The notes below the pieces were generated by a model, which searched no databases, was not told the DNA's origin, and saw only the letters and a program-made list of their open reading frames with translations. A program made the translations under genes and the position numbers. From contig JAIXKU010000048.1 in assembly GCA_026936045.1 (NCBI GenBank), forward strand, positions 1-40,913: a stretch of 40,913 bases of DNA, in the 5' to 3' direction. Origin of the DNA: Flavobacteriales bacterium (GTDB taxonomy: Bacteria; Bacteroidota; Bacteroidia; CAIKAF01). This document shows positions 13,679-19,187 of this stretch, piece by piece (position 1 is the stretch's first letter; each line of letters begins with the position of its first letter).

Positions 13679-15082
13679 TTACCAAGCGCCTTTTTGTTCA
13701 GTTATTCTAGATATGACCGGCATGGTAATCAGTAAAAATGTAGCTAATCCGGCATAAAATATAGCCTGAGCATAACCGGTATTTTTCGCACCGGCAATAA
13801 TCGCTGTGGCACCGGCAATAGCAACAATCTGGCCAAGCTGCATACCCAAAGAACGTACCGCTGCGATATTAGCCGATTGATCAGGCGCTAAAGATATGCC
13901 CGCATTTCTACCCGCAGGGCTCATCGTACCTATTCCTACACCAATAAAAAAGGCCGAAATCATCATCCAGACATAGGGTGAGCCAAACAACGGCTCAATA
14001 GACAGCAAAGCAATCCCTGCAATCATAATAACGCCACCTATATACAATGGTTTTCTATAACCTGTACGATTAATAAATATGCTCATCAACACAGATAAAA
14101 TAACCGAAGAAACACCATTTACCACCAAAAGCATACCTGCTCCCATCTCGCTGATGCCGTACCGATTGATGGCATACAATGGCACCAATGCATTCGCTCC
14201 GATAGCCATGCCCAAATGAATGATATTAAGCAAATTGACCGCTCCAAATCCTTTTCCAGAAATGAATTGTGGCTGAATAAACGGATCTTTTACGTTACGC
14301 AAATGCCTTGATAAAAACAGAAAGGACATAAGAAATAGAAGTGTTAGACCTATAAAAATCGGTGAAGAAAATGTACTACCCGGCTCGGCCAAATATGTGG
14401 TAGCAAACATCACCGAGAGAATAGCCATACCCATTAGCGCCAAACCTGTGAAATCCAAACGGCCATGATCGGTATGACTGAGATTATCTTTTGGCAGAAA
14501 ACGAATAGATAGAAGTAAAACGGCCAATCCCAAGGGCAGGTTGATAAAAAATATCCACGACCACGGCCAATAGGTCGCAATCAGCCCGCCAAAGACCGGG
14601 CCTATCATGGCGCCAATCGAAAATATGCTACCAAACAAACCTAAAAATTGTGCTCGCGCCGAACCAAAGTGAGAAACAATGATGCCTGTTGCCGATGGTG
14701 TGATACCGGCGCCACCAACAGCTTGTATAACACGCATCACAATCAAAAGATAAATATTTCTCGAAAGGCCACAAAATAAAGACGCCAGACTAAAGATTAA
14801 AACAGACAGTCTAAACACACGACTATGACCAAAGCGCGTGCTGAGCTTGGCGCTTAATAATAACATCAAAACAAATCCGAATGAATACGCCGTGAGTGTC
14901 CAACCAACCCAACTGATAGAGGTGCCCAAATCTTCTTTTAATGTATGAAGGACTGTTGCCACAATGGTCGAGTCAATCGTAATCATGAGCAAGGCGAGTG
15001 ATATGATAAGAAAAACGACCCAACGTTGCACAGGCTCAGTTTGTGCGGATTCAGCCTCTTCTCTATTTAATTCTTTATCCAT
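13679..15082 (-). CDS. DHA2-type (EmrB/QacA) MFS drug exporter
   Basis: A 467-residue transporter of the 14-helix drug:H+ antiporter family. IDSTIVATVLHTL in helix 1, WVGWTLTAYSFGF in helix 2, the loop LSTRFGHSRVFRLSV (motif A-like) and RVIQAVGGAGITPSATGII (motif B) identify it. FGSIFSIGAMIGPVFGGLI is motif C of antiporters. The N-terminal 20 residues are charged and cytoplasmic. No EmrA membrane-fusion partner is adjacent. A 21-bp palindrome lies 39 bp upstream of the start and may be its operator. It is divergent from the response-regulator gene, so the two-component system might regulate it. Part of this gene (14464-14515) has a near-identical relic at 19283-19334. Confidence 0.9.
   Translation of the reverse strand: MDKELNREEAESAQTEPVQRWVVFLIISLALLMITIDSTIVATVLHTLKEDLGTSISWVGWTLTAYSFGFVLMLLLSAKLSTRFGHSRVFRLSVLIFSLASLFCGLSRNIYLLIVMRVIQAVGGAGITPSATGIIVSHFGSARAQFLGLFGSIFSIGAMIGPVFGGLIATYWPWSWIFFINLPLGLAVLLLSIRFLPKDNLSHTDHGRLDFTGLALMGMAILSVMFATTYLAEPGSTFSSPIFIGLTLLFLMSFLFLSRHLRNVKDPFIQPQFISGKGFGAVNLLNIIHLGMAIGANALVPLYAINRYGISEMGAGMLLVVNGVSSVILSVLMSIFINRTGYRKPLYIGGVIMIAGIALLSIEPLFGSPYVWMMISAFFIGVGIGTMSPAGRNAGISLAPDQSANIAAVRSLGMQLGQIVAIAGATAIIAGAKNTGYAQAIFYAGLATFLLITMPVISRITEQKGAW
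14464..14515. repeat. Copy 1 of a ~50-bp dispersed repeat (inside the MFS gene)
   Basis: This stretch, encoding LLSIRFLPKDNLSHTDH on the minus strand, recurs at 19283-19334 in the same orientation with three mismatches over 52 bases. It is the functional copy, within the loop between helices 6 and 7 of the exporter. Confidence 0.85.
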
Positions 15083-15277: not shown

Positions 15278-15973
15278 ATGGAAGGCTTGAAAATACTGAT
15301 TGTTGAAGACGAGGCGCGTGTCTTGCAATTCATTAAGCAAGGATTGGAAGAGAACGGTTTTGACGTTGACTTTGCTTACGACGGTGAATGTGGTCGAAAG
15401 CTGGCCTTTTCAAACAAATATGATTTAATCGTATTGGATGTTATCATTCCGCAGCTCAACGGGATTGAATTATGTAAGAAAATTAGAGAAACGGACTCAA
15501 AAACAAAAATTCTGATGCTGACGGCATTAGGTTCATTGAACGATAAGCTGGAAGGGTTTGAAGCCGGTGCTGACGACTATCTCATAAAGCCTTTCGACTT
15601 TCCAGAATTATTAGCCAGAATCAAATCACTTTTAAAAAGAAATCTACAAGATGATGATACGAAAAATGAAGATCATATTCTCAAGGTAGTCGATATGGAG
15701 CTTAACACGCATACCAAGCGCGTGAAAAGAGCCGGAAAAGAAATTAAACTCACCGCCAAAGAATATGCTTTGCTGGAATTGCTTACCCTAAATAAGAATA
15801 GGGTGTTGAGTAAAGCCGAAATTGCCGAAAAAATTTGGAATATTACCTTCGATTCAGGTACCAATACCATCGAAGTTTATATTAATTTTCTTCGTAAAAA
15901 GATAGATAATGATTATCCTGTTAAACTTCTGCATACGTTGGTAGGCATGGGCTATACTATAAAAGATATCTAA
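15278..15973 (+). CDS. OmpR/PhoB-family response regulator
   Basis: A 231-residue DNA-binding response regulator. The receiver domain (1-120) has the acidic pocket E10-D11-E12, phospho-acceptor D54 in LIVLDVIIP, T82 in LMLTALG and K104 in DYLIKPFDF. The winged-helix effector (about 130-230) ends with TNTIEVYINFLRKKID and TLVGMGYTI, as in OmpR/PhoB and CusR-like proteins. The sensor kinase gene starts 3 bp downstream, so both are made together. Direct TTTAAG repeats spaced 11 bp, the geometry OmpR-family dimers favour, occur just after the kinase gene and are the best candidate for its binding sites. Confidence 0.95.
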   Translation: MEGLKILIVEDEARVLQFIKQGLEENGFDVDFAYDGECGRKLAFSNKYDLIVLDVIIPQLNGIELCKKIRETDSKTKILMLTALGSLNDKLEGFEAGADDYLIKPFDFPELLARIKSLLKRNLQDDDTKNEDHILKVVDMELNTHTKRVKRAGKEIKLTAKEYALLELLTLNKNRVLSKAEIAEKIWNITFDSGTNTIEVYINFLRKKIDNDYPVKLLHTLVGMGYTIKDI

Positions 15974-15976
15974 TCA

Positions 15977-17347
15977 ATGAAAATCAGAACGCGGTTCACG
16001 TTGTTGTTTGGCATTATTGTCAGTGTCATTCTGTTCTTTTTTTCATTTTCTATTTATTATATCTCTGATAATTACAGGCAGAACGATTTTCATGCACGCC
16101 TGCAAGACAGGGGCACAGCGCGTTTAAAATTACTTTTAGCAGAAACAGACAACGCCCATATGCCTTCCAACGATCAAGTCTTTGAGAATAGCTTTCATTC
16201 CATCAACAACGAAAGTTTGGTTATTTACAAGTCAAACAAAACACTGCTGTATCGTGATGTTAATGCCCCCTTGCCGCCGGCTGTGGCATTAGATGCCACC
16301 AAGCCGGATAAACCTTTCATCTGCTCGTATGCCCAAAACGAATGTATTGGTTTTATTTATCCATATAAAGGCGAAAATTATGTTGTCTTTTCATCGGGTT
16401 TTGACAAGCATGGCATGAGCTATATAGCCAACCTGAAGCAAACGCTTTTAATTCGTGGCCTTATCTTGCTTTTGGTCATATTTTTATGCGGTTGGCTGTA
16501 CGTAGGACGCCTCCTCAAACCTATCTCAGATATTGTGCAACAAGCCAGCAGAATCACATACAAAAATATGAGCCAACGGTTGAAAAACGGTAACACGAAT
16601 GATGAAATCGGACAGCTTACCTCTACCTTCAATAAAATGCTTGAGCGATTAGAAATCTCTTTTAATATCCAAAAACGTTTTGTCTCAAATGCATCACATG
16701 AATTGCGCAATCCGCTAACCGCCATCAACGGGCAGATTGATGTGGCCTTGATGAAAGACAGAGAGGTGCAAGAATATAAACACGTTTTACAAAATATCTC
16801 CAAAGACATAAAAAATCTAAGAACGCTAACCAATAATTTATTGGAGTTAGCCAATAATGACGAAACGCTCATTCAACATTTTGAAGACATACGTATTGAT
16901 GAAGTGCTTTGGAATATCCAAGCCGATATGGCTCGTCAGTCGCCTGACCGCACTGTACGTATTGAGTTTGATAAAATATTGGAGAGCGATAAATACCTTA
17001 CCTGCAAAGGCGATATCAAATTATTGGAAACAGCATTTATCAATATTATTGATAATGCCTGTAAATTTTCTGATAATAAAACGGTAGATATAAAAATTAC
17101 TACCGACAAATCAAATATCATTTTATTCTTTACAGACAAAGGGATTGGCATACCCAAATCGTTTCTCAATCATATTTTTGAACCGTTTTACCGAGGCAGC
17201 AATGTTATCGGTATTCAAGGTAATGGCATTGGCTTGTCTTTGGTACGACGTATCATCAAGCTGCATGGTGGTAAAATATTTGTAAAATCGGAACTTCATG
17301 AAGGCACCATATTTGAGGTGGTCTTACCAAATTTAAGCCGGTTTTAA
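15977..17347 (+). CDS. Sensor histidine kinase
   Basis: A 456-residue membrane kinase, the partner of the preceding regulator. TM1 spans about residues 9-29, the periplasmic sensor about 30-157 and TM2 about 158-178. HAMP follows (RLLKPISDI onward). HisKA has VSNASHELRNPLT with phospho-acceptor H241. HATPase_c shows the N box NIIDNACKFSD, G1 DKGIGIP, the F box FEPFYRG and G2 GNGIGLSLVRR. The periplasmic part contains two cysteines (C116 and C123, in FICSYAQNECIGF), seven residues apart, that could form a disulfide or metal site. The layout resembles CusS- and RprX-like sensors, but the signal is unknown. Confidence 0.95.
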   Translation: MKIRTRFTLLFGIIVSVILFFFSFSIYYISDNYRQNDFHARLQDRGTARLKLLLAETDNAHMPSNDQVFENSFHSINNESLVIYKSNKTLLYRDVNAPLPPAVALDATKPDKPFICSYAQNECIGFIYPYKGENYVVFSSGFDKHGMSYIANLKQTLLIRGLILLLVIFLCGWLYVGRLLKPISDIVQQASRITYKNMSQRLKNGNTNDEIGQLTSTFNKMLERLEISFNIQKRFVSNASHELRNPLTAINGQIDVALMKDREVQEYKHVLQNISKDIKNLRTLTNNLLELANNDETLIQHFEDIRIDEVLWNIQADMARQSPDRTVRIEFDKILESDKYLTCKGDIKLLETAFINIIDNACKFSDNKTVDIKITTDKSNIILFFTDKGIGIPKSFLNHIFEPFYRGSNVIGIQGNGIGLSLVRRIIKLHGGKIFVKSELHEGTIFEVVLPNLSRF

Positions 17348-17372
17348 TATGACTTAAAAAACGCCGTTCTTT

Positions 17373-17389
17373 TTTAAGTTAATTTTAAG
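17373..17389 (+). promoter_or_regulatory. TTTAAG-N5-TTTAAG direct repeat (candidate operator)
   Basis: TTTAAG at 17373-17378 and 17384-17389 repeat with an 11-bp period. The site lies 26 bp after the histidine-kinase stop and 103 bp before the TDT transporter start. The geometry fits a dimer of an OmpR/PmrA-type regulator. Confidence 0.55.
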
Positions 17390-17434
17390 GTTCCCATGAT
17401 TTTTTGCCTTAAAACCGCCTAAATCTTAATTCTT

Positions 17435-17462
17435 TTTAATGCCGTTTTAACTGCAATTTAAG
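17435..17462 (+). promoter_or_regulatory. Three phased TTTAAn repeats upstream of the TDT gene
   Basis: TTTAAT (17435), TTTAAC (17446) and TTTAAG (17457) follow each other at exactly 11 bp. A possible -7 element, AATCTTTA at 17474-17481, starts 12 bp after the last repeat. A bound regulator would therefore sit where the -33 element should be, as expected for an activator. Confidence 0.55.
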
Positions 17463-17491
17463 CTTCATTTCTGAATCTTTACATAGTTAAA

Positions 17492-18643
17492 ATGGCACAG
17501 ACAATCACACATATTATAACTGAGAAAATAAAAAGTGGCATTGCTCAATTTTTCCCAAGCTACTTTGCGCTCACTATGGCCACAGGTATTGTATCCATTG
17601 CCTGTTTCCTTATCAACATTCCATATCTTGGCGAAGGTCTTTTTTATTTGAATATCTTTTTTTACTGTCTGCTTTGGATACTGCTCCTTAATCGTCTTGT
17701 CTTTTATTTTTCCGAGTTTCTGAAAGACTTTTCCGATCATGCACGCAGTCCAGGCTTCCTCACTTTGGTAGCCGGTACAAATGTGCTTGGCAGTCAATTC
17801 ATCATTATACAACAGAATTATCTTATCGCCTCTATTTTGTATTATCTCGGTTTTGTCCTTTGGGCTATTCTTATCTATTCTTTCTTTTTTATGATTACCG
17901 TGAAGCGCGGAAAGCCATCCCTTGAAAAAGGGATGAATGGTATTTGGTTATTGATGGTAGTGTCCACCCAATCCATTTCAATATTGGGCACACAATTAGC
18001 AGAACATACCTTCTTCTCAAAAGAACTGACCTTGTTTCTATCATTTGTGCTTTTTCTCATCGGATGCATGTTGTATATCATCATCATCACACTTATCTTT
18101 TATCGTCTTACCTTTTTTGAGCTTCGTGCCGAAGAGTTTGCGCCGCCTTACTGGATAAATATGGGTGCGGTAGCCATCACTACTTTAGCCGGTTCTGTAC
18201 TGATTATAAGTGTAAATCAATGGCCGTTTTTGGTTTCTCTCAGTCCGTTCCTGAAAGGATTCACACTGATGTTTTGGGCCATCGGTACCTGGTGGATTCC
18301 GCTTATTCTCATCCTTGGCGCTTGGCGACATTTTTATCAGTTTATCCCCATTATTTATCATCCACAATACTGGGGTATGGTCTTTCCGCTGGGTATGTAC
18401 ACGGTTTGCACCTACCGATTAGCTCAGGCAACCAATATCGGGTTCCTCTTTGACATACCCAACCTGTTTGTATTTGTGGCCTTATTTGCATGGACCATCA
18501 CCATGGCCGGCTTAGTATATAAAAGCATTTCGAATATTTACAAGCTTATAAAAAATAACAGTTTACTAATTCTTAAAAACAAACATTATGAACACAAAAC
18601 AGATTTCAATCGAGAGTCAGTATGTGTCAAGCATACTAACTGA
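17492..18643 (+). CDS. TDT-family (TehA/SLAC1-like) membrane transporter
   Basis: A 383-residue protein with about ten membrane helices. The opening segment [20 protein letters not shown] is the conserved first helix of the tellurite-resistance/dicarboxylate transporter family, which also includes malate permease Mae1, sulfite exporter Ssu1 and the SLAC1 anion channels. [17 protein letters not shown] and [19 protein letters not shown] match the family's later helices. The likely substrate is a small anion (C4-dicarboxylate, sulfite or similar). Phased TTTAAG repeats upstream suggest control by the adjacent two-component system. The last 56 bp overlap the next gene, and the C-terminal tail after residue about 355 is polar and probably not conserved. 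Confidence 0.85.
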
Positions 18644-19187
18644 TACTACTACAAGCAAAACCGCTGCATCTCAGAAAGAGCAGATTCTGAACGCCGATGA
18701 GGTAACCATTGACACTTCACTGTCTCTACAAGAATTGACAGAGCGCTTGCGTTCCTTAACAATAACTGATATTTCGCAAATCCATAATTCGCCTCAGGCA
18801 ACTTATTATGGAGAAATCAACAGTTATAATTTCCAAATCATGAACGTGAAATATGGTCCGATGAGCTCTTTTCCGCCCATACAAGGTGAAATAGAAGAAG
18901 GTGCAGGCCGTACCACCATCAAAGTGAAAATGGATATTAAAAGCCATTTCAAAATGGCCCGCACCATGTATTATACCACATTATTACCTATTGGCCTTAT
19001 TGTTTTATTGCTCAGTTTCTTAGTGCTTGGCGGTACAGCCTATCTGCTGCATGGTATCTTATTCTCAAGCTCATTTATCTTATGTGCATTATTGGTGGTG
19101 GCGCTTACAAAATCATCGCTTATCAATACAAAAAGAAAAGAACTGAAAAATTTTGCCTCCAAGATAGACGGCAGTATCATAGGTTAG
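18588..19187 (+). CDS. Unknown protein with two membrane helices
   Basis: A 199-residue protein I do not recognise. Residues 1-125 are soluble and polar, with a stretch near 45-95 ([34 protein letters not shown]) that alternates like a beta-sheet domain. Residues about 130-150 and 153-172 are two strong membrane helices separated by a short loop, followed by a lysine-rich tail. Both ends should therefore lie on the same, probably cytoplasmic, side. It overlaps the transporter gene by 56 bp, and the ATG follows an A-rich stretch suited to Bacteroidota initiation. Co-transcription suggests an accessory role for the TDT transporter or the regulatory pair (inference). Confidence 0.7.

Follow-up and report, generated by a model that had tools for sequence, protein, structure and literature searches.

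Between a two-component system and a transporter gene of a Flavobacteriales bacterium lies a run of regularly spaced TTTAAG-like hexamers, which raises the question of what binds them and to what effect. The DNA analyzed, referred to here as the window, comprises 40,913 nt (GCA_026936045.1, contig JAIXKU010000048.1, positions 1 to 40,913, forward strand). Its four-gene cassette is arranged on the + strand in the order response regulator, sensor kinase, TDT transporter and small membrane protein. An initial annotation of the locus had proposed that the neighboring regulator serves the transporter promoter from these repeats.

The response regulator (15278-15973; CusR/PmrA-like) combines a receiver domain (Pfam PF00072, E=1.4e-29) with a winged-helix C-terminal domain (PF00486, E=1.1e-21), which places it in the OmpR/PhoB family; its recognition helix reads TNTIEVYINFLRKKI. 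Its best NCBIfam match is the heavy-metal regulator subfamily TIGR01387 (CusR/CzcR/CopR), at 243.5 bits and thus below the cut-off of 279.2, and it scores 159.8 bits against the PmrA equivalog NF007928 (cut-off 330). The kinase (15977-17347) contains HAMP, HisKA and HATPase_c domains (Pfam; alignment of 15 kinases). Both proteins are nearest to heavy-metal sensor systems, yet fall under those subfamily cut-offs. The predicted target gene (17492-18643) encodes a TDT/SLAC1-family anion transporter (PF03595, 169.7 bits against a cut-off of 27.9, E=1.2e-49), which reaches 91.8 bits against the TehA-like subfamily TIGR00816, below the cut-off of 237.25. The end of this gene overlaps the start of the partner gene (18588-19187), whose 199-residue product features a soluble alpha/beta domain and two long, probably transmembrane helices. 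The partner belongs to no known family: its AlphaFold2 model (mean pLDDT 78) has no PDB fold match at E<=0.001, and there was no match above cut-off in Pfam and none in NCBIfam. It accompanies the TDT transporter in every cassette at 44-67% identity and is possibly a transporter subunit. A DHA2-type efflux transporter gene (13679-15082) is divergent from the regulator gene. Upstream of the regulator gene itself, where autoregulation would place an array, none was seen in 15 loci.

The hexamers, all on the + strand, form two pairs and a block. Pair A, TTTAAG-N5-TTTAAT (17332-17348), is conserved and straddles the end of the kinase gene, the stop codon TAA of which sits within the second hexamer. 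Pair B, TTTAAG-N5-TTTAAG (17373-17389), has a comparable pair in most relatives. The C block consists of C0 (CTTAAT, 17425-17430) and, 10 bp on, C1 (TTTAAT, 17435-17440), C2 (TTTAAC, 17446-17451) and C3 (TTTAAG, 17457-17462). It is followed by a -7 element of the Bacteroidota TAnnTTTG type, AATCTTTA (17474-17481), which ends 19 bp past C3. With transcription predicted to start near 17486, C3 would lie at approximately -29 to -24. The leader of the TDT mRNA (17482-17491) is predicted to measure ~6 nt, and ~3 nt in locus L048, so translation may be nearly leaderless.

All the hexamers that the initial annotation listed are present: TTTAAG at 17373, 17384 and 17457, TTTAAT at 17435, TTTAAC at 17446, CTTAAA at 17408 and CTAAAT at 17419. 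Its account of their layout needs some amendment. Steps of exactly 11 bp hold inside each block and not between blocks, 17384 to 17435 being 51 bp; the gap from the last repeat to the -7 box is 11 bp rather than 12; and the five-site array is real but has more than five units, the pair at 17332/17343 and the half-site at 17425 having been overlooked. The 'inverse-type run' at 17408/17419, though present in letters, is unconserved in relatives and lies outside the array.

Pairs A and B fit a PmrA-type box (YTTAAK or CCTAAG as a direct repeat with a 5-bp spacer), and C1-C3 nearly do. Four TTTAA pairs at 11-bp start-to-start spacing (TTTAA-N6-TTTAA) are found on the + strand of the 40.9-kb window, all within 17332-17461, and none on its - strand. 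The 144-bp intergenic region contains 3 such pairs, compared to 0.055 expected from dinucleotide shuffles (P about 0.0002). Scanned with fixed patterns, the genome as a whole is not enriched in them (29 vs 34 for a reversed control), and isolated pairs elsewhere therefore mean little. A genome-wide regulon built on TTTAA pairs was rejected for the same reason, and other exact TTTAAG pairs (L001-L003), located before or in unrelated genes, were treated as chance.

We scanned named Bacteroidota genomes, with loci drawn from MAG contigs, and found the complete four-gene cassette in 14 other genomes, along with 64 more distant transporters lacking two-component genes. The transporter is patchily distributed: matches occur in 11 of 119 related genomes and in none of the other genomes searched from the same genus or family. 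Across the 14 cassettes the regulator is 70-86% identical. The array is kept in every relative found with the same gene order, the arrangement C0-10-C1-11-C2-11-C3 being present in 14/14 cassettes as in the window, with the end of the -7 box 18-19 bp further on. These loci, the window and L060 (16 in total) give a gap-free alignment around the C block. The TTAAT core of C0 is conserved, TTAA of C1 and TAA of C2 (often YCTAAC/G) are invariant, and the C3 core and the central Ts of the -7 element are invariant or nearly so, while flanking positions vary. The -7 element is RAnnTTTG-like in the 16 loci, in line with the Bacteroidota housekeeping promoter, and is imperfect in the window and in L054. 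The latter locus, at 63% G+C, retains GTTAAG / CTTAAT / TCTAAC / ATAAAG, followed 18 bp downstream by GAACCTTG. Each of the 15 intact cassettes, L054 included, outscores all 600 shuffles of its own sequence, a test that is partly circular because the scoring pattern was derived from the same loci. Two checks are independent of that derivation: 66 TDT control loci and 60 paralog loci.

None of the control loci, in which no two-component genes adjoin the TDT gene, exceeds 13 of 18 except L060, which scores 17. In L060, the transporter is preceded by the array and by what remains of the kinase tail, and the two-component genes lie on another contig of the same genome (L140). Since the array is kept although those genes lie elsewhere, it travels with the transporter promoter. 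L056, whose transporter is 68% identical, has neither two-component genes nor array. The initial annotation had named two refuting conditions, loss of the repeats in relatives with the same gene order and a motif equally frequent elsewhere, and its proposal withstood both: the array is kept as described above, and the full triple is essentially restricted to the TDT gene across 8 cassette genomes (at most one mismatch, at that gene in 7/8, elsewhere at the reversed-control rate). Across 395 genomes of the class there are three instances of the exact composite of triple and -7 box, two of them before the cassette's TDT transporter. The second copy of the regulator gene in one cassette genome (G047:C26:35-727, L181), 85% identical to that of the window, sits at a contig edge, with the cassette copy elsewhere in the genome.

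Conservation of pair A might reflect coding constraint: in most species AATTTAAGC encodes the conserved NLS end of the kinase, and pair A would then be only the Asn-Leu-Ser-stop codons, with no regulatory role. We consider this unlikely. The pair follows the stop codon in L062, lies far from the kinase gene in L054 and persists without a kinase gene in L060; its placement in the first two loci argues against mere coding constraint.

The third occurrence of the exact composite (L141, 1495-1560, G254:C19) has four perfect TTTAAG units with an 11-bp period and a -7 box. The run, on the minus strand, precedes a thioredoxin-like gene, and no two-component system adjoins it in the stretch seen. This case, in an unrelated genome, led us to paralogous regulators. 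We collected 60 class-wide loci (43-59% identity), with protein matches as the sole criterion, and scored them for four units plus TTTG (maximum 28). At a spacing of 11 bp, 22/60 loci reach at least 25 on the sense strand and 3 do so on the antisense strand; at spacings of 7-10 and 12-15 bp the count is 0/60. The arrays consist of [TC][TC]TAA[GT] units following the kinase stop codon, and the distance from the last unit to the TTTG end peaks at 18 bp, where 14 loci score at least 26, compared to at most 6 at any other distance. When only operon flanks are considered, 48 of 81 paralog loci score 23 or more; the array lies directly past the kinase gene in 44 of these, and the distance is exactly 18 bp in 37. 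In G300, for example, where the regulator is 57-59% identical and has the helix TNVIEVYINFLRKKI, the array TTTAAG-N5-TTTAAG-N5-CTTAAG-N5-CTTAAG runs across the kinase stop and lies 18 bp before the TTTG end, ahead of an unrelated gene. The next open frame of at least 100 codons begins 1-45 nt past TTTG in 12/13 examples, and the targets vary: an outer-membrane efflux protein, a DUF6044 protein, a receiver-like protein and unknowns. The remaining 38/60 loci score below 25, some having no recognizable array near the operon, so the rule is common and not universal.

The letters of the hexamers follow the recognition helix. With a Phe helix (..VY[IV]NF..), 34/34 scored units show T at hexamer position 2 and 0/34 show C, whereas with a Tyr helix (..NY..) 72/99 units show C, mostly as TCTAA. 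At position 6, Glu helices (..EVY..) favor a final G and Asp helices a final T. Per-locus Mann-Whitney tests give p about 5e-7 and 2e-6, values that overstate independence because the loci share ancestry. G+C content does not explain the covariation, which is seen in every G+C class taken separately and also within five genomes that contain both helix types. The window regulator (Glu, Phe) is thus predicted to read TTTAAG, which matches pair B and C3; the final letter is T in C1 and C in C2. We think it likely that a large Bacteroidota regulator subfamily shares one promoter grammar, with three to four [TC][TC]TAA[GT] units in tandem at an 11-bp period, the last unit 18 bp before the TTTG end, usually just past the kinase stop, with two helix residues (Phe/Tyr and Glu/Asp) setting two bases per unit. 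The layout is a rule of the subfamily rather than a peculiarity of the window locus. In open-licence papers on TTTAAG or TCTAAT motifs and Bacteroidetes regulators we found no description of it.

Similar half-sites are known from other phyla. The PmrA (BasR) box of enterobacteria, read by an OmpR/PhoB-type helix, is a direct repeat of CTTAAT/CCTAAG or CTTAAG/NTTAAT with a 5-bp spacer (PMC3973317, PMC4660055). The window array shares this hexamer repeat and spacer, and the PmrA base-contact residues T187, N188 and V192 are kept in the window helix. It differs in having at least three to four units plus upstream pairs, instead of two half-sites, at a Bacteroidota promoter; the regulator is far below the PmrA family cut-off and has Asn and Phe in place of PmrA H195 and N196. 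Direct readout is plausible because the Phe/Tyr position corresponds to PmrA Asn196, which contacts bases in the solved complex. The CiaR box of streptococci (PMC3091779), located upstream of the -10 region and read by the helix VVEVYVSKVRKKL, has the repeat TTTAAG-N5-TTTAAG in common with the window array, and the window helix resembles that of CiaR. In contrast to the present array, it has two units located 10 bp from the -10 box of a Firmicutes promoter, and CiaR serves 15 promoters rather than one dedicated predicted target. The HP1043/HsrA box of Helicobacter likewise consists of a TTTAAG pair with a 5-bp gap and overlaps promoters (PMC8345958), but HP1043/HsrA is an orphan, essential and phosphorylation-independent regulator that has been modeled head-to-head. 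In NCBIfam and the PDB (PcoR), the window regulator and kinase are closest to CusR/CopR proteins, although the regulator is below the subfamily cut-off. The boxes read by CusR are not tandem arrays but inverted-type repeats that precede metal-efflux genes.

By every comparative test that we ran, the repeats are real and functional, and the array is almost certainly bound by the neighboring two-component regulator, judging from conservation, linkage and helix covariation. The initial annotation is thus supported in its essentials. We favor, with a probability of roughly 0.86, a mechanism in which phosphorylated dimers of the adjacent regulator at the tandem hexamers recruit polymerase to the TDT-partner transcript. 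Dimers would bind head-to-tail to [TC][TC]TAA[GT] units presented on one DNA face by the 11-bp period. Two such dimers on C0-C3 are the most likely reading, against which stands the C0-C1 spacing of 10 bp, not 11, in the TDT group; pairs A and B would provide extra upstream docking sites. In the Flavobacterium -7 consensus and its numbering, with the last G at -5 (PMC6847099), C3 occupies about -28 to -23, C2 -39 to -34 and C1 -50 to -45, the window being one base further. The C block stops ~23 bp short of the predicted start and spans the place of the -33 element, so the regulator, once bound, most likely substitutes for that element or touches it, recruiting the Bacteroidota housekeeping polymerase much as regulators at PhoB, CiaR or PmrA boxes do over -35. 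The array position is that of an activator over the -33 region. Sequence comparison shows an array with a set phase and a constant distance to the -7 element, its linkage to the regulator subfamily and the helix-hexamer covariation; from these we infer physical binding, dependence on phosphorylation and activation rather than repression.

The array layout alone does not separate activation from repression. The bound regulator could instead repress the TDT promoter until the signal relieves it, and C2 and C3 do overlap the region around -33 that sigma would contact (numbering of PMC6847099). We regard repression as distinctly improbable: in many unrelated promoters C3 lies a constant 18 bp from TTTG, which fits an activator that touches polymerase, whereas repressor sites need no such set distance, and the absence of a recognizable -33 TTTG also fits an activator. 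It is very unlikely that another regulator occupies the sites: the array is tied to the presence of the cassette two-component system, the hexamers covary with the helix of this subfamily, and the cassette regulator is its only member in the window genome (next best match 36% identical). Even less probable is an RNA element or terminator between the kinase and transporter genes, which we rejected. The intergenic RNA of the window does fold more favorably than shuffled sequence (z -2.5) and has a hairpin at 17350-17381 whose arms are an A-run and a T-run, but this segment is missing in 6/12 aligned relatives, there is no Rfam match or terminator-like site, and the conserved repeats are direct, not inverted. 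Chance clustering in A+T-rich intergenic DNA, which the genome-wide background count of 11-bp TTTAA pairs might suggest, has a negligible probability and is refuted by conservation in 15/15 cassettes including one of 63% G+C, as well as by the shuffle tests and the paralog period spectrum.

To our knowledge, neither target nor binding site is known for most Bacteroidota two-component systems. If the shared promoter grammar proves true, the targets and specificity of many uncharacterized systems could be read from sequence, and the operator layout combined with the two-residue specificity rule would allow target assignment and laboratory rewiring of two-component systems. The layout also points to a way in which OmpR-type activators may work with the Bacteroidota sigma factor, an unusual one with a weak -33 element. 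At the window locus, it would tie a TDT anion transporter and its unclassified membrane partner to one dedicated sensor.
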